Shown here in pieces: positions 3,566-63,259 of a stretch of DNA of 64,000 bases (within the stretch, counting starts at the first letter, position 1; every line of letters begins with the position of its first letter). The DNA lies in NCBI RefSeq assembly GCF_010092445.1, contig NZ_CP048031.1, positions 4,278,001 to 4,342,000 of the forward strand, in the 5' to 3' direction. The position numbers and the translations under genes are program-made. This DNA is from Shewanella sp. Arc9-LZ (lineage in GTDB: Bacteria; Pseudomonadota; Gammaproteobacteria; Enterobacterales; Shewanellaceae). The notes under the pieces were generated by a model that was given only the letters and a program-made list of their open reading frames with translations, was not told the origin of the DNA and did no database searches.

Positions 3566-4840
3566 TTACATATTCATACAGTTAGCATAATATGTCACTG
3601 TGGCAGGCCAGTCAGAAAACACCCCTATTACCCCGACATCTTTTGCCAGTACATCTAACAGCTCAAAAGTATCACCTTCGTTATCAATCACGTCAGCAAT
3701 ACTCTGATAATACCAACCACCGCCGCCTTGACTCAGTGGCCCCGAACGCTCTAATGACCAAGCAATAATCTTCAAGCCAGCGGCACTTGCTGCTTTGGCA
3801 TATTCAGATGGCACTATCGCGTTATTGTCTCCTACGGTAACCAGCATCCATAAAGGTGGTGCAATAATCTTGACCCCGTCTGCCGCTAAGGTGTCCATAC
3901 TCGGTGACCATGTGGCACTGTTTTGCGGATCAAATCCAGCTTGCTCGTCACGGCCATCAAGGTATACCGCTTGATCGGCAAATTCAGGTGCGTTGGCTAT
4001 CCAATATTTTACATCGTCTAAATTAAACGATTGTGGAAACACTTGCGATGCATCAACGCCTGCTGCGGCATATTCATCTAGCATTTTTTGGGCGTAATCT
4101 TGTTGGGTAAATCCATCATACGGCATGCTGACACTGGCCGACTTAAGCTCGGGAGTCATCTTTACTCCAGCAGCTTTGAATAAGGCAATACTTTCAGCGT
4201 GAGTCATTAACGTGCCATTACCGGCATATAAATCGGTGCGCCAATTTGGCGTGCCATCCATAAACTCTTCAACTGTGGTGGCATTGGGGTTAAAGCCGTC
4301 CATTTTGCCTTGCAAGGTTGTAAACTCTGCAAGACTAATATCGCTGGTACAACAGGTTGCCGTTGCACTCACGCCATTGACGGCATCGGCTGGTGAAAAT
4401 GGCACTGAACATTTATTGGCTAGGGCCGGGATAGCAAGAATATTGGTGGTAGTGGCTAAATCACACTGCGAGTGACGGCAAACTAACTCTTTATCTGCGG
4501 TAAATGTCACGTCACATTCCACAATACCTGCGCCCGAATCGATAGCTGCTTGATAAGCTTCTTTGGTATGCTCAGGAAATTGCATTGATGCGCCGCGATG
4601 ACCAATAGAAAAGTCAGTACGGTAAAATGAATTTGAAGCACATTGCGCTAATTGATCTTTTAACTCACTGTCTTGCATTTGACCGACTAAAAATAGCGGC
4701 CTAGGGCCTACTTGAGCGCTAACACTTTTATCCACTTCTGCAGTGGTGTCATTATTATCGTTACTGTTACACCCCGAAATCCATAACGTACTGGTTAAAA
4801 CTGAAATGATACCCAGTGTTACACTTTTTTTCCTTGTCAT
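3566..4840 (-). CDS. Glycerophosphodiester phosphodiesterase family lipoprotein
   Basis: 424 residues. The N-terminus is a lipoprotein signal with lipobox ISGC (Cys 24) followed by Asn/Asp-rich linker. The GDPD fold begins with GHRGAS near residue 80 followed by [23 protein letters not shown], which carries the catalytic His-Arg and the metal-binding E-x-D. H at RHSQCDL completes the active-site set. It should cleave glycerophosphodiesters to glycerol-3-phosphate and an alcohol at the cell surface or in the periplasm. The start ATG has GGAG 7 bases upstream. A candidate PhoB box lies upstream, which fits a phosphorus-scavenging role. The closest relatives may be the GlpQ-like group with inserted segments. 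Confidence 0.88.
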
Positions 4841-4926
4841 CTTTTTGCTCCATGTTGTAATGCGGTAATGTCAGTTGTAATGGTTTGCTGAAAAATTCAT
4901 CATCAGGAACAGCTTACGCAATGAAT

Positions 4927-4955
4927 ATGACTGAATTATCGAATTAATATGACAA
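4927..4955 (-). promoter_or_regulatory. Weak candidate PhoB box upstream of the phosphodiesterase
   Basis: On the minus strand TTGTCAT and CAGTCAT lie 22 bp apart, which is two PhoB periods of 11 bp. The heptamer between them (ATTCGAT) is a poor match. The site is about 90-115 bases before the start codon. Confidence 0.4.
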
Positions 4956-5076
4956 CCTTAGTTTCTACTGTTTTACCGACCGATTGAATAATATAAAACA
5001 TGACCCTAACTGCGGTAACGGTAAATAGACAAGCAAATAAACGATAGTGAGTAAACAGCTAACAATGAGGTCCACA

Positions 5077-5718
5077 ATGGTAAACACAACACTTTATTAT
5101 GTTCACGATCCAATGTGCAGTTGGTGTTGGGGATATCGCCCCACATGGGACGCCCTGCAAGCTCAACTACTACAGCAGTTTGGCCAGCAATTGAGTCTAC
5201 AGTATCTAGTCGGTGGTTTAGCGCCCGACTCCGACCAACCCATGCCGCAACCCATGCCGCAAATGTTACAACAAACCTGGCATAAGATTAACCAACAATT
5301 AGGTACAGAATTTAATCACGACTTTTGGCAGCATTGCCAACCAAGGCGTTCAACGTATCCAGCATGCAGAGCTAGCATCATTGCTCGCCAATATGGGCTA
5401 GAGCAACAAATGATCAACGCCATTCAACAGGCTTATTACCTTAATGCGCGTAATCCATCTGATGTTGATACTTTGGTATCGATTGCGACTCAATTAGGGA
5501 TCCCCGCAGACTTGTTCACAGAGCAATTAAGCGCTGATGAAATAGAAGATAAATTACTCAGCGAAATCAATTTTGCTCGCCAACTTCCCATTCAAGGATT
5601 TCCCTCATTAGTGCTGATGGTCGATAACAATGCCTATCCTATTCGGCTTGATTATCATCAATGGCAAACCAGCTTGGCAGACATACAGACTATCCTGTTA
5701 ACAACCCAACCGAGTTAA
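5077..5718 (+). CDS. DsbA family protein (thioredoxin-fold, CSWC)
   Basis: 213 residues from the ATG at 5077, chosen because GAGG sits 6 bases upstream; an in-frame GTG lies at 5047. The N-terminus reads as beta strand then DPMCSWCWGYRP, where CSWC occupies the thioredoxin-fold active site. The C-terminal GFPSLVLM supplies the cis-proline region. No signal peptide is visible, so it is probably cytoplasmic, as in the FrnE/2-hydroxychromene-isomerase-like branch of DsbA proteins. Its substrate is unknown; a disulfide oxidoreductase or glutathione-linked role is inferred from the fold only. Confidence 0.85.
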   Translation: MVNTTLYYVHDPMCSWCWGYRPTWDALQAQLLQQFGQQLSLQYLVGGLAPDSDQPMPQPMPQMLQQTWHKINQQLGTEFNHDFWQHCQPRRSTYPACRASIIARQYGLEQQMINAIQQAYYLNARNPSDVDTLVSIATQLGIPADLFTEQLSADEIEDKLLSEINFARQLPIQGFPSLVLMVDNNAYPIRLDYHQWQTSLADIQTILLTTQPS

Positions 5719-5909
5719 TTAGCCCATAAGGACATTAGGACCGCATGACTTAATGACTCTACGCACCGTCACGGGGTAAACGTCAGTTAAGATATAAAGT
5801 TTGCACGACGTTGATTAGCCTTTGGCCTTAATGGCCAATATCCTATACTCTGCACGTCGAAAACGACAACGCCCCACACAGGCTTGTTAAACATAACATG
5901 AGGCAGTGA

Positions 5910-6590
5910 ATGACAGATCGTAAACGAGGTTTTTTCGGTTGGACATGGTTTGTCATGTGGCGATTTTTGCTATTACTGGCGCTATTGTTACTGCTGCTTA
6001 GATTTGTGCCACCACCGACGACGTCATTTATGCTGCAAAGCGATTATCCGGTTAGTCAGCACTGGGTAAGTATTGATGAACTGCCAGCGCACATGCCTTT
6101 AGCCGTAGTGGCCGCAGAAGATCAACTGTTTCCAGAGCACTTCGGGGTCGATTTTACCTCCATCACTAAAGCCCTTAACCAGTACGACGACGGCCAAAGT
6201 CTGCGTGGTGCCAGTACCATCAGCCAGCAAACCGCCAAAAACCTATTACTTTGGCCGGGTAGAAGCTTCGTTCGCAAAGGGTTAGAAGCCATATTGGCCG
6301 TTAGCCTTGAAGCGATTTGGGGCAAAAAGCGTATCTTAGAGGTGTACTTAAACGTAGCCGAATTTGGTAAAGGTATTTATGGCGTAGAAGCGGCGAGTCA
6401 GCACTATTTTAATAAATCGGCCCGCTATCTATCCAACAATGAAGCGGCGCGCCTAGCAGTGTTGTTGCCGAGTCCGCGTAACCGAAACCCTAACAATTTA
6501 ACCCCATACCTGCGCCAAAGAGTCGCTTGGGGTGAAAAACAAATGCGCCAACTTGGCTCTGGCTATTTAAAGCCTATTCTTACCAATTAA
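5910..6590 (+). CDS. mtgA: Monofunctional biosynthetic peptidoglycan transglycosylase
   Basis: 226 residues, the normal size for MtgA. A single N-terminal membrane anchor (about residues 12-30) is followed by a GT51 domain. The catalytic Glu lies in VVAAEDQLFPEHFGVD, and the family motifs GASTISQQTAKNLLLWPGR, EAYLN-like ILEVYLNVAEFGKGIYGVEAAS and NEAARLAVLLPSP are all present (quoted in parts). It polymerises lipid II into glycan strands at the outer face of the inner membrane without a transpeptidase domain. GAGG lies 8 bases before the ATG. Confidence 0.96.
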   Translation: MTDRKRGFFGWTWFVMWRFLLLLALLLLLLRFVPPPTTSFMLQSDYPVSQHWVSIDELPAHMPLAVVAAEDQLFPEHFGVDFTSITKALNQYDDGQSLRGASTISQQTAKNLLLWPGRSFVRKGLEAILAVSLEAIWGKKRILEVYLNVAEFGKGIYGVEAASQHYFNKSARYLSNNEAARLAVLLPSPRNRNPNNLTPYLRQRVAWGEKQMRQLGSGYLKPILTN

Positions 6591-6606
6591 CCGCAATACC
6601 ATGCCC

Positions 6607-9036: not shown

Positions 9037-9471
9037 ATGATGACAAAATGGGCAATACGCTTTTTACAAATGGCCGAGCTCGTAGCATCTTGGAGTAAAG
9101 ACCCTTCCACCCGAGTTGGCGCGGTGATCACTGAAAACAATCGTATCGTCTCGCTAGGCTTTAATGGTTATCCTCACGGAATATCAGATAGCGCTGAAAC
9201 CGATAACCGTGAAATGAAACTGCTAAAAACGCTCCATGCAGAAGAAAATGCCATTCTGCATGCCAAACGAGATCTCAGTAGCTGTGAGATTTGGGTAACC
9301 CACTTCCCCTGCCCAAACTGCGCCGCCAAGATTATCCAAACAGGATTGCGCGCTGTGCATAGCCCACAACCCAACGAAGATTTCCTGTCACGCTGGGGAG
9401 ATAAGATTAAAGTCAGCGAAGAGATGTTTGAGCAAGCTGGCGTTCAAGTCGATTGGATGCAAGTAGATTAA
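9037..9471 (+). CDS. Cytidine/deoxycytidylate deaminase family protein
   Basis: 144 residues. The zinc site is clear: HAEENA supplies the His ligand and catalytic Glu, and PCPNCA supplies the two Cys ligands. SKDPSTRVGAVI near the N-terminus is the substrate-binding strand of dCMP deaminases. It most likely converts dCMP to dUMP for thymidylate synthesis in the cytoplasm; a ComE-like or broader nucleotide deaminase role is possible. Confidence 0.9.
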   Translation: MMTKWAIRFLQMAELVASWSKDPSTRVGAVITENNRIVSLGFNGYPHGISDSAETDNREMKLLKTLHAEENAILHAKRDLSSCEIWVTHFPCPNCAAKIIQTGLRAVHSPQPNEDFLSRWGDKIKVSEEMFEQAGVQVDWMQVD

Positions 9472-9515: not shown

Positions 9516-9624
9516 TCCAGTTGTTTACTCTTTGCATTTATGGCCTGCGTGTCACTTCATCATAGTAAAGGGTGAACAGTCTAGCTTCACTTTACTAGCT
9601 GGCTTTAAAAGGCTAGGTAAAAAT

Positions 9625-9647
9625 TTAACAATGGATGCCATGATTAA
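9625..9647. repeat. Cassette-associated repeat, copy 1 (diverged)
   Basis: Contains AATGGATGCCATGATTAA, a diverged copy of the AATGGGTGGCATGGTTAA element also found at 10104-10126 and 12876-12898 and, inverted, at 10899-10916. It lies just downstream of the minus-strand ORF 9658-10068. Confidence 0.6.
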
Positions 9648-9657
9648 TTCGTGTCGT

Positions 9658-10068
9658 TTACAAGCTTTCTAAGAATATTTGCCAAGTAAAAAATAACAAC
9701 CACAGAAGGCCAAGCATAAAAGCGACATCTTCTTTAATCGATGAGCCAAACTCTGAGCTATTATCACCAAAAAAGTAACCTACTGGTTTGGAATATATTA
9801 CTGCCGCTAAGCATAAACCTGGCACAAGATAATACAGCACCCAATCTTCTAAATACGTGCTTGTTTCATCGACACCCATTACAACGTAACTGTGCCCATA
9901 CATTAGCAAATAGACTACGTATACAAGTACAAGAATAACGGCAAAATACTTACCCCATTTCCATTTTTTTAAGTTATCCGAAAGCGATAAATCGAATTCA
10001 TGATTTGAATAAATGCCAAAAAAGATCAATGGCAGCATCAGTAAACAAATGCCTAGAAAAGTACTCAA
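9658..10068 (-). CDS. Hypothetical membrane protein in cassette-like array
   Basis: 136 residues with about four hydrophobic segments (near residues 2-18, 36-56, 75-95 and 113-132). I do not recognise the family. The start is a TTG at 10068 with GGAG about 11 bases upstream, so the exact start is unsure; an ATG 10 codons further in is an alternative. It follows the attC-like site at 10121-10276 in the minus direction, so it would be the last cassette of the array. Confidence 0.6.
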   Translation of the reverse strand: MSTFLGICLLMLPLIFFGIYSNHEFDLSLSDNLKKWKWGKYFAVILVLVYVVYLLMYGHSYVVMGVDETSTYLEDWVLYYLVPGLCLAAVIYSKPVGYFFGDNSSEFGSSIKEDVAFMLGLLWLLFFTWQIFLESL

Positions 10069-10103
10069 AATACAGCTCGCTCCAGAAATTTAATAATGGG
10101 AAT

Positions 10104-10126
10104 TTAATAATGGGTGGCATGGTTAA
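10104..10126. repeat. Cassette-associated repeat, copy 2
   Basis: Carries AATGGGTGGCATGGTTAA and overlaps the R'-like end of the attC candidate at 10121-10276. In the minus direction it reads on from GGGCGTTA into CCATGCCACCCATT, immediately ahead of the 136-residue ORF. Confidence 0.7.
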
Positions 10127-10276
10127 CGCCCAAAGTTTACCCTGCCCCCACTAAATTCACCTTTAAATTCACTTTTATAAGCGATTAAAAGAAGTAGTGA
10201 ATGATCAAAAAAACAACTATTTATTGTCCTACTTTAATGACTTCTTGTACAAAAAATTATTCTTTCTTTGTTAGAT
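10121..10276 (-). repeat. Candidate attC recombination site (156 nt)
   Basis: Read on the minus strand it starts with ATCTAAC, a perfect RYYYAAC R'' box that overlaps the end of the lipoprotein gene, and ends with CTTTGGGCGTTAACC. AACAAAG pairs with CTTTGGGCGTT. The GGGCGTTA end is the same as in Vibrio-type attC repeats. The R' box has one mismatch to GTTRRRY. Confidence 0.6.
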
Positions 10277-10799
10277 AATTAACATAGTTAATTTCACTTG
10301 TATGATTTGACTCGAAAGCATAGCCTTCATAGGTAATTGATAAGTTATTTGATAAATACAAAAGGTTATTATAAATTTCTACGTTTACAGTCATTTCCCA
10401 TAGAGGCTCTTGAAAAACTTCGACAACAATAAATTTATCATTTGTATCACGATTCGATTCGGGATAGCTGTAGGGATTAATTGTTTGTGAAATAGATTCT
10501 ACAGGGGTTCCTGCACAATCAGAGGTATCATATTTATGTTGAATTATTTCTAAATTGACACTAGTTATGACTAATTCATTTGTATAATATGCCAAATTTT
10601 TCCTTTCGCCACAATTTGATAACCATGAACCAGTTAGATCGAATGTTTCATCAATAGGCACAGAAACAATGGGAGGAGCTATACTTTCGTCTTCCACTTC
10701 AGAAGTGCCGCCACAACCGTACAATGTTACGAAGGCAATGCAAATGATGAACCTAATGAGAAAATAGTTAGTGAAGTTTATTTTAATATTAGAATACAC
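10257..10799 (-). CDS. Hypothetical lipoprotein in cassette-like array
   Basis: 180 residues with a lipoprotein signal: hydrophobic stretch then LYGCGG with the lipid-modified Cys near residue 29. The mature part begins with an acidic linker and is predicted mostly beta by eye; GSWLSNCG is a recurring opening of small secreted beta proteins. No family is recognised. The start is a GTG with AAGGA about 7 bases upstream. Codon use is A+T-rich compared with the core genes around it, as expected for acquired cassettes. Confidence 0.7.
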   Translation of the reverse strand: MYSNIKINFTNYFLIRFIICIAFVTLYGCGGTSEVEDESIAPPIVSVPIDETFDLTGSWLSNCGERKNLAYYTNELVITSVNLEIIQHKYDTSDCAGTPVESISQTINPYSYPESNRDTNDKFIVVEVFQEPLWEMTVNVEIYNNLLYLSNNLSITYEGYAFESNHTSEINYVNYLTKKE

Positions 10800-10837
10800 A
10801 GAAAATTCCTTTTATATATGTGAAGTAGATAGCACCC

Positions 10838-10881
10838 GCCTAACACTCAATGTGTAGACGTGGCTTTTAGCATTGTTTGCT
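10838..10881 (-). repeat. Short attC-like remnant
   Basis: On the minus strand AAACAATG pairs with CATTGAGTGTT and the site ends in GTTAGGC, a perfect GTTRRRY R' box. At 44 nt it is shorter than usual attC sites and its R'' box is poor, so it may be a truncated site. Confidence 0.35.
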
Positions 10882-10898
10882 AAAACTATAACCAACAA

Positions 10899-10916
10899 AA
10901 CCATGCCACCCATAAT
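10899..10916. repeat. Cassette-associated repeat, inverted copy
   Basis: AACCATGCCACCCATAAT is the reverse complement of the core found at 10104-10126 and 12876-12898. It lies 9 bases from the R' end of the attC site at 10925-11035. Confidence 0.65.
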
Positions 10917-10924
10917 TTGCATAA

Positions 10925-11035
10925 GTTCAACGCCCGGCTAAGCCGCCGAAACGGAGTTGATTGTTTTGTGCAAGCGTAGCGAAAAAGCACAAAACAAGCG
11001 ACGCAGTGGAGGTCGGATTGAGCCGCTTGTTAAAT
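10925..11035 (-). repeat. attC recombination site (111 nt, best in window)
   Basis: On the minus strand the site runs from ATTTAAC, a perfect RYYYAAC, to GTTGAAC, a perfect GTTRRRY. The outer arms AACAAGCGGCT and AGCCGGGCGTT pair imperfectly. An inner arm, TTGTTTTGTGC with GCACAAAACAA, is a perfect 11-bp inverted repeat. It starts 3 bases after the stop of the DUF2071 gene, exactly where a cassette's own attC belongs. Confidence 0.85.
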
Positions 11036-11037
11036 TT

Positions 11038-11826
11038 TTACCCAACAACAGTTGGCGGCAAGTAAATAGTAAATTCATTAATGGGCTCTATTAAAACGCT
11101 ATAAGGTGACTTTTGCTCTTCTGCTTTTACAATTCCAAGATCAGATAAAAGGTTGAAAGTAGCAGATACAAGCGTGGCTGGCTTAACTTCTAGCTCCTTG
11201 TGCCAGACTCGGTAAGTACCTAGTTTATTGTCTCTTCGATAATAAAAGCCAGCTAAAGGATGTGTTAAGTAAACCAGGGCAGACTCAACGTCGGGGAAGC
11301 CAGGAAAATCAAATTTGTCAGATTTAGATTGAACCAATTCTACCGAAGCAGCCGCCCACTCAGATGCCGTTTTCATGCGGTACTTTTCATAAAAACCACT
11401 AGTTTCATCTATCACACAGTCGAAACTAACTTTTCCAGAATGCCAAGGAAGATTCCATAGATATCTAGGCACGGCTAGAGTCCACGAGTCCAACGTCGTA
11501 CCAAGAAACCATACGCAACGCTCACCCGTTTCCTTATCGGTAATATAAATACGATAATTAGTTTGCCCCATTGTGAATTTTGGGAATGGAAACACTGCTG
11601 ATGTGAAATCTACATCAATAAACGGAACTACGGATATAAGTCCCATTTCCTGACCATTTACTTCAACTGTATCTAGCTGAAACCGCTCAGGAAATATACC
11701 TTGGAACCTCTCCGCCGGTACGGCGTAGGTGATAATTGCAAAATGCTTTAAACCACACAGAACATCTATCCCTTGTGGCTTAGGCCTCTCAATCAAATAA
11801 TCTTTTAGCTTCCGGGACTCTTGCAC
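11038..11826 (-). CDS. DUF2071 family protein (YqjF-like) in a cassette
   Basis: 262 residues, resembling the DUF2071 family, whose fold is related to acetoacetate decarboxylase. The N-terminal part with CGLKHFAIITYAVPAERFQGIFPERF and LISVVPFIDVDF (quoted in parts) is the recognisable segment. Function in this family is not established. No signal peptide is seen. The start is a GTG with AAGGA 6 bases upstream, directly after the R' end of the attC at 11841-11942. The gene is flanked by attC sites on both sides, so gene plus 10925-11035 forms a well-bounded cassette. Confidence 0.8.
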   Translation of the reverse strand: MQESRKLKDYLIERPKPQGIDVLCGLKHFAIITYAVPAERFQGIFPERFQLDTVEVNGQEMGLISVVPFIDVDFTSAVFPFPKFTMGQTNYRIYITDKETGERCVWFLGTTLDSWTLAVPRYLWNLPWHSGKVSFDCVIDETSGFYEKYRMKTASEWAAASVELVQSKSDKFDFPGFPDVESALVYLTHPLAGFYYRRDNKLGTYRVWHKELEVKPATLVSATFNLLSDLGIVKAEEQKSPYSVLIEPINEFTIYLPPTVVG

Positions 11827-11840
11827 GATACTTCCTTGAA

Positions 11841-11942
11841 ATTTAACGCCAACATATGGGGCGGCTGTAACAGAGCGAGTAACGAGTGGCGAGTAAGCCG
11901 TCCCAGCAGCCGTAGGATGCGAACATCATGTTCTTGTTATGT
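11841..11942 (-). repeat. attC recombination site (102 nt)
   Basis: On the minus strand it begins ACATAAC, one mismatch to RYYYAAC and overlapping the TAA stop of the upstream ORF, and ends GTTAAAT, a perfect GTTRRRY. The arms AACAAGAACAT and ATGTTGGCGTT pair with a few mismatches. Confidence 0.75.
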
Positions 11943-12635
11943 TTCAACTAACTGTTCTTTTAATTTACCTGATCGATGTAAATCTAAGCATACATCTAAT
12001 GCTTCATTGATGACTTTCTCATACCCTTCTTGAAGGTTATCAAGCATGCTAACACTAATAATAATTGTATTTTCAATGTGGTTTTTTAGAGTTTTTTCTG
12101 AACGTGGGTATTTACCAAAAGTAACTTCCAAAGTTTCATGATTAGGGTTTGCATAAGCACCAAATGTTCCCGAGTAGTTAGGGTGTGCATATTCAGACAA
12201 CATATCGTAGTGCCGGCCAAACTTCCCTTCGAGTTCTTTGTCCACAGACTTTATGCAAGTTAATATGTTTGTTTTTTCAGGAAACTCTTCATCTTTAGAC
12301 CACCCCAATATTAAGCTGCGTGTTCTTTCGCTGAAGTGCTTTAAATCTTTAGTTTTAACTAGGTGCGACAACTTAGTATTTAAATACCACATTACGGCCA
12401 AGGTCTCATACGCAGAACGAACCGAAACGACTGAGCCAACAAGCAACTCTACTTTGTACAAGGCATGTGCAGATTCGATCAACTCAATAAATCTATACAT
12501 TACTGCTTCACGTAAATAGTCAGCTTCAAATGTAGGCTTATAAGCTAGGTTCTTCGACAATGGCCTTACAATCACACGTCTATGTTCTTTCCATACAGAG
12601 AGACCAGCCATAGCTTCTTCTATATTTTTATACAC
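11937..12635 (-). CDS. Hypothetical protein in cassette
   Basis: 232 residues from the GTG at 12635, which has a strong AAGGAGG 5 bases upstream. A longer frame reaches a TTG at 12689, but that start falls inside the attC-like repeat at 12651-12710 and is rejected. The protein looks helical and soluble, with motifs RSAYETLAVMWYLN and MLSEYAHPNYSG. The latter two resemble the conserved Glu/His segments of DUF5677/HEPN-like helical proteins, but I cannot assign it firmly. Its stop codon overlaps the following attC. Confidence 0.75.
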   Translation of the reverse strand: MYKNIEEAMAGLSVWKEHRRVIVRPLSKNLAYKPTFEADYLREAVMYRFIELIESAHALYKVELLVGSVVSVRSAYETLAVMWYLNTKLSHLVKTKDLKHFSERTRSLILGWSKDEEFPEKTNILTCIKSVDKELEGKFGRHYDMLSEYAHPNYSGTFGAYANPNHETLEVTFGKYPRSEKTLKNHIENTIIISVSMLDNLQEGYEKVINEALDVCLDLHRSGKLKEQLVET

Positions 12636-12650
12636 TGAACCCTCCTTGAA

Positions 12651-12710
12651 ACATAACGTTTTAGTATTTATGCGTTGCGCTGTTTGCAAGGCATAAATCG
12701 CTTGTTGGAC
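12651..12710 (-). repeat. attC-like site shared with the tRNA-Ser island (copy 1)
   Basis: On the minus strand it starts GTCCAAC, a perfect RYYYAAC, and the arm ATTTATGC pairs with GCATAAAT around a 17-base loop, closing with AAC and GTT. Its R' box GTTATGT matches GTTRRRY poorly. A near-identical 59-nt copy lies at 61976-62034 in the opposite orientation, and the similarity continues about 60 bases further upstream of the site. Confidence 0.7.
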
Positions 12711-12722
12711 TTGGCCGATGCC

Positions 12723-13236
12723 ACATCCAAATTAATCGGTATGATTTATGCTATAGGAATTTGCTTTTTAACGGTAGTGGTATTTTGTACAACCTTTCGG
12801 CTAATCGTCTGTTCTGGTTAACCTTTTAAGGTGGATTTTGTTGGCTTTCATCTTTTTCCATTGTTCGATTATAATTTAACAATGGGTGGCATGGTTAAAG
12901 ACCGTGTTTCCAATCATTCCCGAGATAAAGCGCAGATTAGCGACGCGCAGCTGCCCCTGTTGTCAGCAACCAATGCGCTTTATGGGCATAGTGAAACGAC
13001 CGACAAACTTACGGCTCACAACCTAACGCGGGAAATGATAATAAGAATAATGGCTTAATCAATACGATGAAGGAGTTAATTTAAGATACTGAAAGTATAG
13101 CGTTAAAAATTAGCAGAGGGGCTAAGGGAGCTTGCTGACTACAGAAAATTAGCACGATAACTATCACATCAAACAGCGCGTTTTCTCGAGCTGTTAATTA
13201 CATAATAAAGAGTCACTCTCAGGTGTTCGGGCTTGT
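12723..13236. other. Cassette-region spacer without a convincing gene
   Basis: No ORF here has a ribosome site and plausible composition. The segment holds the repeat at 12876-12898 and a possible attC end (GCGTTAGGT on the minus strand, near 13030). A 75-codon plus-strand frame at 12831-13058 runs through the repeat and is not called. Near 12733-12780 the minus strand encodes, after an in-frame stop, ANSYSINHTD-stop, which matches the tail of the 40-residue ORF at 61832-61954. Confidence 0.55.
12876..12898. repeat. Cassette-associated repeat, copy 3
   Basis: Carries AATGGGTGGCATGGTTAA, identical in the core to the copy at 10104-10126. Here the flank reads GGTCTTTAACC on the minus strand in place of GGGCGTTAACC, so the attC end next to it is degraded or absent. 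Confidence 0.65.
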
Positions 13237-13291
13237 TCAACACTTGGGATAAGGACGCGGCTTCGCGCGGCCTATCCTTATTAGTTATGTA
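13237..13291 (-). repeat. Candidate attC site or GC-rich terminator hairpin
   Basis: On the minus strand ATAACTAATAAGGATAGG and the segment ending CCTTATCCCAAGTGTTG form an imperfect palindrome with AAC and GTT at its ends and a GC-rich CCGCG core. It directly follows the 3' end of the CPXCG pseudogene. It could also simply be a terminator. Confidence 0.5.
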
Positions 13292-13295
13292 TTTA

Positions 13296-13491
13296 TTAAA
13301 ACGCGTCATCGTCACTATAAACATTAACTGATAGTTCGCCATTAACACTTTCAGAAATTAAGAAATTTATAGGTTTACAACATACTGCAATCTTCAATAT
13401 ATTGCTGGTCCGAATCTGATGGATCAATCAGAACTTTAATGACCTCTCCACAGTAAGGACACCTAATAGATTTTTCAGCTAATTGATTCAA
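13296..13491 (-). pseudogene. CPXCG motif-containing cysteine-rich protein, frameshifted
   Basis: The first frame starts at a TTG (13491) and encodes EKSIRCPYCGEVIKVLIDPS then DSDQQYIEDC before ending at a TAA (13375-13377). In another frame, starting right after that Cys, the minus strand continues VCCKPINFLIS, then VNGELSVNVYSDDDAF-stop, which is the rest of the same small zinc-ribbon-like family (CPxCG and a later CC pair). A loss of two bases near 13390 explains the break. The intact protein would be about 65 residues. A sequencing error is the alternative. Confidence 0.75.
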
Positions 13492-13977
13492 TTTCTACGG
13501 TTCCCCTATTTGCCTAAATACAGACAGCTTATTGAACAGCTCGCCCAATAAAGCCGACCGTTTAAGTTATTGATTTATATCATCCTACATTCTCAATCTC
13601 ATTGAAGTAAAGCAATTTAATGACTCTTACACTCAAATATAAAACTGAAATTGCGCGTTAAAAGTATCGAATTTAAATGCTAAAAAATTAAATTAAACAA
13701 TATCAATAAATTAGAATTATTCTATTTTTCTCACCGTACTACTTTAGTTCGATTTTGATTACGTTTTTATGTTTCTAGCAAACGAACGACGAGCTTCCAG
13801 TGGTACGCAACAAAGCGCTTTGTGTTCTTTTTTCGTTTGAAATTAATGGAGTCAGAATAAACTTTATTGGTTAGCAACCAATCCAAAATTGTCATCACAT
13901 TTGACTATCATTAATGGCGCCGTTAACTTGAACAGAGTAAAAAACTCATCACGTATCAAATTAACCCAAGGGATCAC
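13492..13977. other. A+T-rich intergenic region
   Basis: No ORF, RNA gene or repeat is supported here. It includes the upstream region of the gene at 13978 and is notably A+T-rich around 13660-13740. Confidence 0.5.
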
Positions 13978-14586
13978 ATGAATATACTGCAACGTTATAA
14001 CCTACTGTCCACCAGCATATTAATGTGTTGTTTCTTTTTTAGTGCGGGAGTATTTAGTTCGGGTGTGAATAGCTCGGAAGTGAATAGTGTCGATATGAAC
14101 CGCGCAAGCAGCATGGCCAACATTGATACCAGCAAACTTGGCGACATAAAAGCAATTAAATTTAATAACCAGCAAGTCATTACCGCAGGTTTACCCACAG
14201 AGCCGCAATTTGCACAACTTGCTCAAGCGGGTATCAAAACCGTGATTAATCTTATTCCTAATGACAATCCGCATGCATTACAAAATGAGCAGCAAATAGT
14301 GACTCAACTCGGTATGAACTATCACAATATTAGCGTGGACTGGCAGCAGCCTACACAAGAAAATCTACAGCAATTTTTTAGCCTGATGGAACAGAATGGC
14401 GACGCCCCCGTGTTAGTGCATTGCGCTGCTAATTATCGTGCATCAGCCTTTTATTATTTATACCAAACCCGCCAAAACAAAGCACCGACGATGGCCGAAG
14501 CACTCACCCCTTGGGGCGACTTACAACAAAGCTTTGCTGAATATCCTCAGTGGAAAAAACTGATTGAAGACGTACAAGCTCAATAA
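13978..14586 (+). CDS. Exported protein tyrosine phosphatase-like protein
   Basis: 202 residues with an N-terminal signal peptide (hydrophobic residues about 10-27). The core matches the DUF442/beta-lactamase-hydrolase-like phosphatase group: FNNQQVITAGLPTEPQFAQLA and AGIKTVINLIPND open the domain and VLVHCAANYRAS carries the HCx4R catalytic loop with the nucleophilic Cys near residue 146. It probably acts in the periplasm. The in vivo substrate is unknown. The Ser/Val/Asn repeats after the signal look like a low-complexity linker. Confidence 0.8.
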   Translation: MNILQRYNLLSTSILMCCFFFSAGVFSSGVNSSEVNSVDMNRASSMANIDTSKLGDIKAIKFNNQQVITAGLPTEPQFAQLAQAGIKTVINLIPNDNPHALQNEQQIVTQLGMNYHNISVDWQQPTQENLQQFFSLMEQNGDAPVLVHCAANYRASAFYYLYQTRQNKAPTMAEALTPWGDLQQSFAEYPQWKKLIEDVQAQ

Positions 14587-59955: not shown

Positions 59956-60045
59956 GGAGGGATGGCAGAGTGGTCGAATGCACCGGTCTTGAAAACCGGC
60001 AACGGTTTATCCCGTTCTAGGGTTCAAATCCCTATCCCTCCGCCA
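59956..60045 (+). tRNA. tRNA-Ser (UGA anticodon)
   Basis: A 90-nt gene with acceptor GGAGGGA pairing TCCCTCC, anticodon TGA in GGTCTTGAAAACC, a long variable arm and T-loop TTCAAAT. The discriminator G and an encoded CCA are present. Confidence 0.97.
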
Positions 60046-60055
60046 CATTAAAAAC

Positions 60056-60087
60056 AAAAAGGCCTTATCGAAAGATAAGGCCTTTTT
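60056..60087 (+). terminator. Terminator after tRNA-Ser
   Basis: AAAAAGGCCTTATC and GATAAGGCCTTTTT form a perfect stem around a GAAA loop with a T-run. Confidence 0.9.
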
Positions 60088-60277
60088 GTTTGGGCGAAAG
60101 ATAGGGCTTTGAACCCAAGGGTTCCTCTTTATTACAAGCAAGCTATCCCTCCGCAAGATTCAAGACTAAATGCCAAATCGATAAATACAGGGCCTTTTTT
60201 ATTGGGCGAAAGATAGGACTTTAAACCCAGGGTTCCTCTTTATTACAAGCAAGCTATCCCTCCGCAATATTCAAGAC

Positions 60278-60308
60278 AAAAGGCTCATCAGAAATGATGA
60301 GCCTTTTT
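60278..60308 (+). terminator. Second terminator hairpin of the post-tRNA repeats
   Basis: AAAGGCTCATCA and a matching TGATGAGCCTTTTT arm, as in the first unit's terminator but with a different stem sequence. Confidence 0.8.
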
Positions 60309-60867
60309 CGTTTAGGTGAAAAATAGGACTTTGAACCCACGGGTTCCTATTTATAAGATCGATACTTATATATGAGTTGTAAAGTGTATTCAGCATGTGG
60401 TTACTCATTCAATGACGAATTAGTGTAGTCATTTATGTCTACGGGCGGCATGTCTCTGCACGCGGAAGTGCATTCACTGAGGTATACATGCTGGCTTTTT
60501 TATTGAGAAGTATTGAGGTGCTTTTCTATAGAAACCATTATTTACTGGTTAGATTGTGTTTAACCGAATGAACTGATTTTATATACAGGTATAAATAGAT
60601 TTAGCTTAATTAAAATGAACAACTCATTAGGTAAGCCTAAAGTCGTAATGTAGATTTATTTCGAAAAGTATAATTGATTGATAATATTGCAAATAAATAT
60701 TATCGCTAATTTTTTGAACGACACCAACACGTAACCTCGGTTTTTTTGTGAGGTTGAGAGTTTTTTATCACTTTACATCAAAGACATAGAGAATGTAGGA
60801 TGATTTAAACAATAACTTGAACAGCCGACATTATCGGGCGAGCCGTTCAATAAGTCTTTAACTGTTT

Positions 60868-61137
60868 ATGAGTATTGAAGTATCACAAATAAATAAAATG
60901 GAGCTAGCTGAGAAGCTTGAGTCCTATTTGTCTGGGAAAGTGGGTCATGAGGCCATCAAGTCTTATGCTTGGAGTTTATCTGATGAATCACCAAAAGAGC
61001 CCACGGCAAACGAAAAGGTTTTTTGGTCTAGTGTGTTCTCAATTATTCACTTAGCAGATGATGAACACTGGGAAGACGGTTGCACCCAAAGAGATTTAGG
61101 TGAATTATTAATCCAGCTAAAAGGTGGTAATATTTAG
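60868..61137 (+). CDS. Hypothetical island protein
   Basis: 89 residues, acidic and probably helical, no membrane segment. KVFWSSVFSIIHLADDEHWEDG is a noticeable stretch, but no family is recognised. No strong ribosome site is visible before the ATG. It lies between the tRNA-Ser repeats and a possible attC end at 61209-61215. Confidence 0.6.
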   Translation: MSIEVSQINKMELAEKLESYLSGKVGHEAIKSYAWSLSDESPKEPTANEKVFWSSVFSIIHLADDEHWEDGCTQRDLGELLIQLKGGNI

Positions 61138-61215
61138 CTATAAACCGTTTTTTTTCAAAAGACAAAAGGCGCAAAAACTCGTCCACTTGCTCCAAAATTT
61201 ATGCGGGCGTTAGGT
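61138..61215 (+). repeat. Possible attC site in the tRNA island
   Basis: The segment ends ATGCGGGCGTTAGGT, which includes a perfect GTTRRRY (GTTAGGT) after the GGGC typical of attC ends. The opposite, R'' side is poor. The next ORF starts 12 bases after the R' end, as in cassette arrays. Confidence 0.35.
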
Positions 61216-61226
61216 GAATATCGTAC

Positions 61227-61673
61227 ATGGAAGCATTGTATATAATTTTAGGTGCAGCATTAGCTTTGGGTGGCGGAGTATTAACACACCACGTCCAACT
61301 TTATTACGCGCAACAAAAAGAAGAAAATAATCTTCTTTTTGAAATTGAGAGATCCCTACTAGAAATAGGGGGACTTGATTCTGAACTAAATCATTTTAAA
61401 ACAGAACCTGACACTCTTGATACCAAAGCTAAAGTTGCTCGATACCGTGAGCAAAAGAGCAGTCAATTAGAAAACTTGCACCTTTTAGCCATTAGGATTA
61501 TTTCAGACAAAAATAGGAGTATTGCTGTAAAAGTTGCAAAGTACTCTATTGATAAGCACCATCGTACTGATGAAAATAGATATGTATTATTAAAACTGGT
61601 TCAGCAATCTATGAATTCAAAATTATTAAAACAATATCAAAAAGAAACAGATACTAACCCAACGGTATTTTAA
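61227..61673 (+). CDS. Hypothetical membrane-anchored protein
   Basis: 148 residues: one N-terminal membrane segment (about 3-20) then a long helical, charged part (QQKEENNLLFEIERSLLEI), probably coiled-coil. No family recognised. A weak AGGTG lies about 9 bases before the ATG, directly after the possible attC end. Confidence 0.65.
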   Translation: MEALYIILGAALALGGGVLTHHVQLYYAQQKEENNLLFEIERSLLEIGGLDSELNHFKTEPDTLDTKAKVARYREQKSSQLENLHLLAIRIISDKNRSIAVKVAKYSIDKHHRTDENRYVLLKLVQQSMNSKLLKQYQKETDTNPTVF

Positions 61674-61677
61674 TAAA

Positions 61678-61761
61678 GTTGGTTGGTTCCGCTCCGCATT
61701 TTAGCCAACTACAATTTGCCCCTTAACAGGACGCTGAACTAAGCCGTGGAGCGGAGCCAAC
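61678..61761. repeat. Long inverted repeat after the 148-residue ORF
   Basis: GTTGGTTCCGCTCCGC and GTGGAGCGGAGCCAAC pair over 13-16 bases around a 52-base loop. Polarity (GTT at the left, AAC at the right) is opposite to attC sites, so it is not called as one. Confidence 0.7.
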
Positions 61762-61831
61762 AGAGGCTTCAATTGAGTGTGTAACCCTCATTGAATCAAC
61801 CAAGCTTAAAGATATATTATAGGAAAATACC

Positions 61832-61954
61832 ATGAAAAGGAATTTCAATGAAAAACCAACCCACAACTCGATATCAATTGACTCAAAACTGCTCTGTAGC
61901 CCAGAGCCAGCATCAAAAAATGCAAATCCCTACAGCATAAAGCATGCCAATTAA
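61832..61954 (+). CDS. Possible 40-residue cassette peptide
   Basis: ATG at 61832 with AGGA about 8 bases upstream; 40 codons ending YSIKHAN-stop. The stop lies 21 bases before the attC-like site at 61976. The last ten codons are conserved in frame at the other copy of this site near 12.7 kb (ANSYSINHTD-stop), suggesting that this tail is, or was, translated. No family recognised. Confidence 0.45.
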   Translation: MKRNFNEKPTHNSISIDSKLLCSPEPASKNANPYSIKHAN

Positions 61955-61975
61955 TTTTGACTAGGCATCGGCCAA

Positions 61976-62034
61976 ATCCAACAAGCGATTTATGCCTTGC
62001 AAACAGCGCAACGCATAAATACTAAACGTTATAA
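61976..62034 (+). repeat. attC-like site shared with the 9.6-13.5 kb array (copy 2)
   Basis: Starts ATCCAAC, a perfect RYYYAAC; the arm ATTTATGC pairs with GCATAAAT. It differs from copy 1 at 12651-12710 by one base substitution and one indel over the core. The region upstream, starting about 61930, is also similar. The next ORF starts 11 bases after it. Confidence 0.7.
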
Positions 62035-62045
62035 GGCAAAGGAGT

Positions 62046-62510
62046 ATGCATCAATTGTCGGATCCTGAATTACTAGAATTATATAAACAACATCGTACTG
62101 GCCAAGATAAATATGCATATTTTCTATTGGCTATTGTTGCATCAGCAATAGCGTTTACTGTAAATAAAACTATTGGTTTAAAAGTCACTTATGCAGACAT
62201 ACCATTAGGTTTATCTGTAATCTTTTGGGGGTTAAGTTTTTATTTTGGCTGTAAATATCTTGAATGGTGCCAAACTGCAACATTTTCAAATTTTAACTTA
62301 TTGCAATTAAAAAAAGGGGTTCATCCTCAACAACCACTGCACCCTCTAGAAATTGAAGCAGCAATTAATGGTGTTACTTCTGCATTGGAAAGTAACTCAT
62401 CTAATGCAGGTAAATATAATAGCTTTCAATTTAAGTGTGCTATTGGTGGCGCATTAATGTTTCTTATTTGGCATGCTATTAAAGTGTATTTTTTCACAGT
62501 TACCATATAA
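62046..62510 (+). CDS. Hypothetical two-TM membrane protein
   Basis: 154 residues with membrane segments at about 18-35 and 50-68 and a C-terminal hydrophobic stretch (ALMFLIWHAIKVYFF). No family recognised. Starts directly after the attC-like site; AAGGAG lies very close to the ATG, so initiation may use another upstream purine run. Confidence 0.65.
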   Translation: MHQLSDPELLELYKQHRTGQDKYAYFLLAIVASAIAFTVNKTIGLKVTYADIPLGLSVIFWGLSFYFGCKYLEWCQTATFSNFNLLQLKKGVHPQQPLHPLEIEAAINGVTSALESNSSNAGKYNSFQFKCAIGGALMFLIWHAIKVYFFTVTI

Positions 62511-62541
62511 TAAGAAGTTATGTGAAAAATGGAGGTTCATC

Positions 62542-62889
62542 ATGAATAGAGCTGTGATTTTTATAGTTGCCTTATTAGCTTCGTCTTATTCGTTTTCCGA
62601 CAGCGCTTCAGGTGAGTTTATGGCATATGGGCTTGGGTCTGTCTCATGCGGAAAATATTCGAGCCTAAGTAAAAATGGAAGTGGTCATGATATGGCAAAT
62701 CAGTGGGTTCTCGGCTTTGTAACGGCAAAAAATGAAAGCTTGCACTTCGAGAAGGTGAATAGTTATTTGGAAGGCCTAGATACTCAGGCAATTACTAAAT
62801 ACATCGAAAATTATTGTGGCACAAACCCATTGGATCAACTCTATTCTGCTGCAAATAGATTAGTTTACGATCTATCTCTTAAAAATTGA
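62542..62889 (+). CDS. Small exported hypothetical protein
   Basis: 115 residues from the ATG at 62542, where GGAGG sits 6 bases upstream; the frame extends further upstream but overlaps the previous gene. A signal peptide covers about residues 1-20. The mature part has SCGKYSSLSKNGSGHD and YCGTNPLDQLYSAANRLV; two or three Cys may form disulfides. Resembles small Rap1a/Tai-type or HdeA-like secreted proteins in layout only. Confidence 0.65.
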   Translation: MNRAVIFIVALLASSYSFSDSASGEFMAYGLGSVSCGKYSSLSKNGSGHDMANQWVLGFVTAKNESLHFEKVNSYLEGLDTQAITKYIENYCGTNPLDQLYSAANRLVYDLSLKN

Positions 62890-63259
62890 TTCTCATGCCC
62901 ATAAACAGAATAAAATCACATAACAAGAGACTATGGCTCAATAACTATGATTAAGCTTTAGCACTTGAGGCAGAACATCATTCTTCTGACGATAAATAAA
63001 ACAACAGTTTGGTGTAACCATTTACTCATTCAATACTCGTACAACCCGTGTATACAGGCGTCTTAGAAGTAAGAGGTAGGGCTCAAATCCCTACCCCTTT
63101 GAATATTGAATTTTCAGAACGATGACTTTACGTTTATATTCTGTAGTTATACTTTAGCCCTCATAAAGTTTCTGTATTAACCGTATTTGACCGCCTATTT
63201 ACAACACGCTTTGTAACTGAACCAGTGACCTTGTCACTAACCCATAAGGAATCGAAACG
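62890..63259. other. Right end of the tRNA-Ser island
   Basis: Contains ATAACAAGAG (attC-like R'' end) near 62920-62930 and the tRNA 3' fragment at 63075-63101. No gene is seen. Confidence 0.55.
63075..63101 (+). repeat. tRNA-Ser 3'-end fragment (possible att remnant)
   Basis: TAGGGCTCAAATCCCTA is the T-arm of the tRNA-Ser at 59956-60045 with one loop change, followed by a diverged acceptor strand (CCCCTTTG in place of TCCCTCCG). No 5' half is present. It lies 3 kb downstream of the intact tRNA. Confidence 0.7.

Follow-up and report, generated by a model that had tools for sequence, protein, structure and literature searches.

The window analysed here, 64,000 nucleotides of the Shewanella sp. 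Arc9-LZ chromosome (positions 4278001–4342000 of a single 4.91-Mb contig), carries a run of cassette-like open reading frames (ORFs) on the minus strand at about 9.6–13.5 kb. Judged by its sequence, this array is the near (attI) end of an integron without an integrase gene (intI) and one of several attI-headed loci in the genome. We consider it probable that the locus is an attI-headed integron array whose intI has been reduced to a scrap of 27 codons, and that it is one of several ports of a single integrase acting in trans. Two attC sites, an attI unit recognized by homology and position, an intI remnant, the dispersal of such units, attC sites downstream of them on the same strand, and differing cassettes between conserved flanks are the directly observed basis of this reading. 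The features on which the argument turns are the following (genomes carry G numbers, G000 being this one, and loci carry L numbers):

13523–13756, minus strand: attI/promoter unit heading the array, with the crossover between G13525 and T13524, GTCTGTA instead of GTTRRRY, and a match to profile R1 at 13523–13634 (E 2.3e-32).
13763–13841, plus strand: 5′ intI remnant of about 27 codons (residues 57–76; tblastn E 9.8e-5), in which neither a start codon nor a LexA-type box survives.
11841–11942, minus strand: attC of cassette 2 (model R2: 34.9 bits, E 1.5e-6).
10925–11035, minus strand: attC of cassette 3 (model R2: 37.6 bits, E 2.9e-7).
60640–60861, plus strand: second attI unit in the window, downstream of tRNA-Ser 59956–60045, with an R1 match at 60758–60861 (E 3.1e-24).

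The initial annotation had recognized the minus-strand succession of cassette-like ORFs and described an integrase-less, integron-type array, either a bare cluster of attC sites or the far end of a larger integron. The array itself stands, but neither of these two descriptions does: its start consists of an attI/promoter region plus a 5′ intI scrap, which marks it as the near (attI) end of an intI-less integron. This head (13523–13841) had been omitted, as had a truncated attC half at 10823–10920. The 233-b unit is 94% identical to the same place in the relative G043, and 86% and 83% identical to the stretch directly upstream of intI in G043 and G077, respectively; by homology and position, it would be the attI that adjoins the first cassette. 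RNAalifold gave no consensus fold for the unit. The adjoining remnant is 80% identical to intI coding DNA of G043 (L096:3686–3770), and in frame +2 its translation VFMFLANERRASSGTQQSALCS aligns with QFLCFLANERRVSSSTQQQALCA. At the orthologous locus, more survives in G043, where the start codon of intI and a few codons remain, together with a CTGT-N8-ACAG box. The absence of a visible intI from the window, already remarked upon, was borne out and extends to the whole genome, in which no intI match exceeds the TIGR02249 cut-off (best 137.9 bits vs 265) and no functional intI was found. The best match is a 97-residue C-terminal piece (residues 217–313), the site of which is presumed to be the original intI locus of this genome. 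This piece (L001:1780–1860; G000:C1 ~772.5 kb) abuts sequence resembling, by eye, the flank of a gene for a repetitive extragenic palindromic (REP)-type transposase.

The attC sites were evaluated with a covariance model, R2. Its training set was 23 of the 26 sites that a strict pattern search had yielded in Shewanella loci plus one plasmid record; none of the training sites came from the array tested, one came from the orthologous array of G043, and four came from L150 (same genome, 2.0 Mb). In a scan of the full 64 kb with filters off, for which the tool's E-values are rough, the two sites listed above are the top two of 20 matches, at coordinates identical to those initially proposed. The third match, at 61615–61739 (E 0.0078), lies in another array, and the remaining 17 all have E ≥0.07. 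Six units in a row had been said to end in attC-like palindromes. The two palindromes rated best are attC by a model that holds no site of this array, but the other four are not intact attC sites, so that cassettes with attC are found at two of the six. Among the rejected candidates, those at 9622–9652, 10101–10131, and 12873–12903 are copies of one short dispersed repeat, GGGTGGCAT, and the candidate that follows the frameshifted unit is one end of an IS91-like element. Folding of the minus-strand (bottom-strand) segments, suggested as a check, succeeded for 10925–11035, which folds better than its shuffles (z −2.88), but was weak for 11841–11942, which does not clearly do so (z −1.52); R″/R′ pairing is 5/7 at both. 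The 10925–11035 site is 88% identical over 106 b to a site on an Alteromonas plasmid, and its best place in 73 of the 82 matching plasmid records is at 90–95% identity. Its 51-b core, found at 90% in plasmid records, adjoins a CARB beta-lactamase gene in both records whose annotation was examined (H28, H42). The 11841–11942 site has no match among the plasmid records.

Extending the R2 search to the whole genome gave 15 attC at E ≤1 (scores were computed for 150 of 1681 candidates, and the listing lacks the 11841 site). Six of these lie behind an attI unit at 2.0067 Mb, two behind a unit at 2.5073 Mb, and one behind a unit at 4.7648 Mb; the array described here contributes one, the window's second array contributes one weak match, and the last four, from three places (1.1376–1.1381, 0.332, and 1.840 Mb), are without a unit.

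The units themselves are widely dispersed. A DNA search with the 233-b unit returned several copies per genome, and the profile R1 was then made from 36 of 51 unit copies, with both window copies excluded; genome counts obtained with it are lower bounds (37 candidates scored per genome, strict filters). At E ≤1e-5, at least 141 matches are present in 22 of 97 congeneric genomes, with at least 11 here (two of them partial), 12 in G043, 13 in G085, 12 in G077, and 11 each in G034, G055, and G067. Order-wide, R1 matches occur in 14 of 394 sampled genomes, all within one of 114 genera. Six genomes (G043, G034, G067, G095, G008, G030) have a unit head-to-head with an intact intI across a gap of 222–232 b; in G077 the neighbouring intI is frameshifted, and in G055 unit and intI are 1.3 kb apart. 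Altogether, 8 of the 141 units have, at a distance of at most 1.3 kb, an intI listed at E ≤1e-50; intI scraps with weaker scores fall outside this listing. On the left side of 51 copies (up to 900 b; four shorter), there are four intact intI genes, one frameshifted gene, and two remnants, the latter being those of this locus and its G043 ortholog; two more copies have weak intI matches (E 0.03, 0.06), and 42 have none at E ≤1. The end of the unit coincides with the start of the cassettes: among 76 distinct copies that extend to the right end, the boundary was located in 68 and reads GTT in 65, under a pattern that itself required G[TC][TC]. An IS91-like end directly follows the unit in 5 of 68 units, and IS91-like elements are a possible dispersal vehicle. 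Plasmids and phages were rejected as vehicles, with one weak plasmid match (65 b, S. baltica OS117) and no phage match.

Cassette recombination sites accompany the units. In 24 loci (216,802 b), R2 gave 51 matches at E ≤0.1 and 46 at E ≤0.01, of which 44 are in 23 unit loci, 44 of 44 sharing the strand of the unit; an attC follows within 2.5 kb downstream in 21 of 33 units. These strand and downstream counts are partly circular because many R2 training sites came from the same loci. A further set of ten full-unit loci, which has L151 and L152 in common with the 24, includes six with attC at E ≤0.01, all downstream on the unit's strand. The control, 18 deaminase-locus stretches of relatives (221,608 b; one of them, L046, contains a weak partial unit), gave no attC at E ≤0.01 and one at 0.086.

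A second attI family emerged from a query of 301 b upstream of an unrelated Shewanella intI (G013, L106:4360–4660) that had been chosen as a negative control; it had to be discarded as such, being itself a dispersed attI family, and the deaminase-locus set became the control instead. The query matches in 52 of 97 genomes, with four or more matches in 23 (seven candidates scored per genome). The shared 148 b (L106:4525–4672) end in AATAAAATGTT in 13 of 17 copies read and in close variants in the other four, and AATAAAATGTT is the core printed for delta-attI2 sites in the accessible portion of PMC12901181. By coordinates, a match adjoins intI in nine genomes (G013, G015, G035, G060, G072, G027, G071, G052, G084). 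Sixteen distal copies (L238–L253) were taken from G013, G069, G038, G024, and G015. Thirteen of them are followed by differing sequence, and L238, L239, and L242 continue like L106 with one shared sequence, the stretch common to these four after GTT being perhaps an inserted element. Each of the 16 is followed by attC within 2.5 kb, and 31 of 31 attC matches (E ≤0.01) at second-family loci, all at sites outside the R2 training set, are downstream on the same strand; none of the 16 has an intI trace better than E 0.6. Five left flanks, inspected by eye, are apparently beside different chromosomal genes. This second family widens the claim beyond type 1 as a clade oddity: as far as sequence can tell, two unrelated types of attI unit are scattered across Shewanella chromosomes, where they head integrase-less cassette arrays.

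Gene content at these loci is not conserved in relatives, as the suggested comparison of cassette presence and absence revealed, and the strict gene-order conservation that had been named as evidence against an integron was thus not found. This genome and G043 have common flanks, a common head, and a common intI-truncating junction next to a phosphatase gene, with no cassette ORF in common at the DNA level. In G085, the locus holds other cassettes and has lost its head, and in G048, G055, and G095 there is no array at the orthologous place. A second port, at 2.007–2.016 Mb, has flanks 96% and 92% identical between this genome and G043, and between them only units, IS91-like ends, attC, one ~0.93-kb block, and stretches of 69 b and 30 b are in common. 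At the tRNA-Ser port of the window, G048 has the unit, other cassettes, and the same right end, and G043 has the flanks without the unit. The intI truncation predates the divergence of G000 and G043, so later exchange would need either an integrase in trans or homologous replacement. Two further comparisons were set aside: G043 does not offer a clean empty site at the tRNA-Ser port, since it has other DNA between the flanks and no target duplication can be read, and an apparently precise G/TT breakpoint between G000 and G085 at w10930 was not used because the break is an inverted GGGTGGCAT repeat at w10920–10923, 7–10 b away. The cassettes of G085 include a 285-aa ORF (L042:6334–7191) with, on reading, a TIR-type nucleotide-binding look, and an adjoining cupin-like cassette.

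Together, these patterns suggest that one enzyme once served many ports. The working of the unit as attI and promoter, the action of the integrase in trans, and the manner in which units spread are parts of the process that we infer. The attI/promoter unit, in some cases together with fragments of intI, would have been copied to many loci, and a single integrase made elsewhere (from an intI locus that relatives such as G043 still have in complete form) would act on all of these ports. Folded attC cassettes would be recombined into the G/TT point of any port, and the unit's own promoter would express the first cassettes. Decay of intI in this genome would then have frozen the ports, which would have been eroded by IS91-like elements entering the GTT core of attC and attI and by REP-type repeats. 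On the broader proposal of a Shewanella 'multi-port' integron, in which attI, in at least two unrelated types, was copied to a dozen or more loci, each loading its own cassettes in trans by means of a single integrase and expressing them, our judgement is evenly balanced.

A number of findings weigh against ports served in trans. The promoter scan of 13400–13980 gave one site (13706–13677, array strand) vs a mean of 2.1 in shuffles. Twelve of 33 units have no attC match within 2.5 kb downstream, and four of the ten full-unit loci (L151, L196, L199, L201) have no attC at E ≤0.1. Nine of the 33 have attC within 2.5 kb upstream, and these mid-array units may be promoter-bearing cassettes rather than ports. 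The left boundaries of units vary. Several many-unit genomes (this one, G085, G033, G078) lack an intI match at E ≤1e-50, so that trans action there would be historical at best. The turnover of cassettes could reflect homologous exchange between strains or integrases that each port formerly encoded; intI sequence was indeed once present at this locus, and the LexA-type box of the intI promoter is retained in 16 of 51 copies. One alternative is repeated decay in place, whereby complete integrons were duplicated with their own intI in cis and later lost it, leaving the units as tombstones. This explanation, which we judge unlikely, draws on the intI remnants at this locus and its G043 ortholog and on the fact that 10 of the 16 boxes at the intI-promoter position belong to copies without an intI match better than E 0.03. 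Against it stand the common intI truncation and different cassettes of G000 and G043, which imply turnover after the loss in cis unless arrays were swapped by homology, the 42 of 51 type 1 copies without any intI match at E ≤1 in the up to 900 b to their left, and the 16 distal second-family units devoid of intI traces better than E 0.6.

The units might also be promoter-bearing, gene-less cassettes, or miniature inverted-repeat transposable elements, that came to lie beside intI by chance, with the true attI elsewhere. A mid-array copy (L150:7298–7625) preceded by a terminator-like hairpin and an attC end fits this idea, and gene-less, promoter-active cassettes are known in Vibrionaceae superintegrons from the available text of PMC11014356; we nevertheless find it quite improbable, as six genomes have the unit interposed, at a constant distance, between intI and the boundary of the first cassette, and the unrelated second family follows the same pattern, ending in the delta-attI2 core or a close variant of it (available part of PMC12901181). 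A cluster of attC sites lacking an integron integrase (CALIN) could also form without any attI, from cassettes inserted at another genomic site (attG), and this route may account for the four attC matches at the three unit-free places of the genome. At this locus it is contradicted by the 233-b attI unit (13523–13756) and the intI coding remnant with which the array begins, an attI thus being present at the insertion point, and we hold it to be very remote here. That the locus is no integron at all, and consists of chance palindromes and debris of insertion sequences (IS) and REP elements, is hardly credible: three of the palindromes are indeed REP-type repeats and one is an IS91-like end, yet the attC E-values of 1.5e-6 and 2.9e-7, set against no match at E ≤0.01 in the 221,608 b of control sequence, contradict it.

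By the usual definition (at least two attC and no intI nearby), a program would call this array a CALIN: its two attC lie within a few kb of each other, with no intI in the vicinity. According to the available text of PMC9229058, CALINs occur in 59 Shewanella genomes and IS91-like elements occur in arrays. The locus resembles the CALINs described there in having two or more attC, no nearby intI, a chromosomal location, and few cassettes, and differs by the attI copy and intI remnant at its head; attI at Shewanella CALINs goes unmentioned in that available text. Integrons typically have one attI, near the integrase, and IntegronFinder detects no attI outside class 1 (accessible part of PMC9024848); dispersed attI may be easily overlooked because the standard program lacks such detection. 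With sedentary chromosomal integrons the system shares attI, attC, small cassettes, and, in relatives, an SOS-type box at the intI promoter, whereas here many attI units occupy separate loci and at most one type 1 unit per genome is near a listed intI. The delta-attI cassettes of mobile integrons, functional for IntI1 in the portion of PMC12901181 available, likewise place attI sequence inside arrays where IntI1 can use it. As presented in that portion, they are mostly tails of 14–18 nt (one of 244 nt, one a complete attI1) behind genes in one integron, in contrast to the units of 150–230 b or more described here, which head separate arrays over the chromosome. The unit at this locus is a head; elsewhere, the nine of 33 units mentioned above are mid-array with attC upstream. 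The gene-less promoter cassettes of Vibrionaceae are, as far as the accessible text of PMC11014356 goes, also ORF-less segments that possibly bring a promoter into an array, whereas the segment here is the attI region itself and often the array head. In the open-licence literature searched, no description of dispersed attI units in Shewanella was found. If the multi-port proposal is true, many Shewanella 'CALINs' would be ports of a distributed integron and not degraded integrons. If attI heads many integrase-less arrays that still exchange cassettes, there would be many first positions instead of one, the cassette load would not be bound to a single array, and the origin of CALINs would become testable through their attI heads.

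The remaining features of the array, in order from its head, and the second array of the window are as follows:

13300–13491, minus strand: cassette 1, a small cysteine-rich (CPYCG) ORF, frameshifted, its three-frame translation giving two pieces in different frames.
13284–13290, minus strand: R″ box ACATAAC of the cassette 1 attC, separated from its R′, with 7/7 pairing to GTTATGT at 12651–12657.
12904–13283, minus strand: IS91-like remnant behind the R″ box, in opposite orientation to the cassettes, 89% and 91% identical to two copies in L044.
12873–12903, strand not assigned: GGGTGGCAT repeat (REP-type transposase-associated; repeat family D1), with genome-wide copies.
12658–12872, minus strand: right end of a second IS91-like element, 95–97% identical to L096:6388–6615 and 93–97% to L098:11468–11688.
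12651–12657, minus strand: R′ box GTTATGT, opening cassette 2 and complementary to the R″ at 13284–13290.
11937–12635, minus strand: cassette 2 ORF, DUF5677-like, with a GTG start after AAGGAGG (Pfam PF18928, E 1.3e-4, 22.5 bits, under the cut-off of 27.1).
11038–11826, minus strand: cassette 3 ORF, DUF2071 (Pfam PF09844, E 1.7e-28).
10823–10920, minus strand: truncated attC, right half, its left half being an inverted GGGTGGCAT repeat and its R′ decayed; 84% identical to the right part of the intact attC L044:9583–9654.
10257–10799, minus strand: lipoprotein-like ORF without a family match, within a stretch 96.5% conserved in G085; likely an old cassette.
9622–10131, minus strand: 136-aa membrane-protein-like ORF (9658–10068) between two GGGTGGCAT repeats, with no attC by the model; a putative cassette at most.
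60868–62900, plus strand: second cassette array, with ORFs 60868–61137, 61227–61673, 62046–62510, and 62473–62889 and a weak attC at 61615–61739.

The attC of cassette 1 is thus split, and between its R″ and R′ lie the IS91-like remnant, the GGGTGGCAT repeat, and the end of the second IS91-like element. This second element sits at the attI GTT in G043 and G077, and a further IS91-like remnant is carried by the second window array (~61735–62030). Wherever sequence was read, the ends of IS91-like elements lie directly against the GTT/AAC core of attI and attC (L096 ~4243–6604, L044:6896–8874, L093:5001–7229, and window 12658–13283). The full L044 element resembles the IS91 family in that it encodes a Y2/IS91 transposase with its zinc-binding domain (PF04986, PF14319), together with a tyrosine recombinase; the window holds remnants only, in the form of end fragments. 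These elements may constitute an IS91 group that targets attC and attI. A related element lies directly behind aadA1 in a class 1 integron of the E. coli plasmid RCS41.

Besides the three copies rejected as attC, the GGGTGGCAT family is represented in the array by the inverted copy at 10899–10917. With at most one mismatch, its core occurs at 23 places in the genome (three in this array) vs two for the reversed pattern, and by coordinate comparison six of these places are within ~1.6 kb of pieces of a REP-type transposase gene. The REP-type transposase gene of G043 is L044:4495–5475, with NF047646 and PF01797 matches that are both below cut-offs. The repeats stand at junctions: at the truncated attC, at the IS91-like debris, and at the breaks relative to G077 (w10129) and G085 (w10923). 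The truncation of the attC at 10823–10920 is identical in G085, and its intact L044 counterpart is the model match L044:9581–9682, a training site.

For eight ORFs of the two window arrays, neither the defence library nor NCBIfam gave a match. In G085, an IS3-like insertion (~1.26 kb; L042:3893–5131) breaks the counterpart of the 136-aa ORF. Close to the array, the deaminase gene (window 9037–9471) has a second copy of its 3′ end only, ~1.3–2.2 kb from the full gene, in four relatives (G043:C1:4121363–4121485, G071:C27:149580–149715, G040:C133:184532–184627, G066:C6:165188–165293); its interpretation as an island att site was dropped, the duplication being flanked by REP-type repeats in G043. 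On the 3′ side of tRNA-Ser, at window 60032–60354, there are three tandem 101-nt copies resembling a tRNA 3′ end plus terminator, and similar copies are found in G043 and G048.

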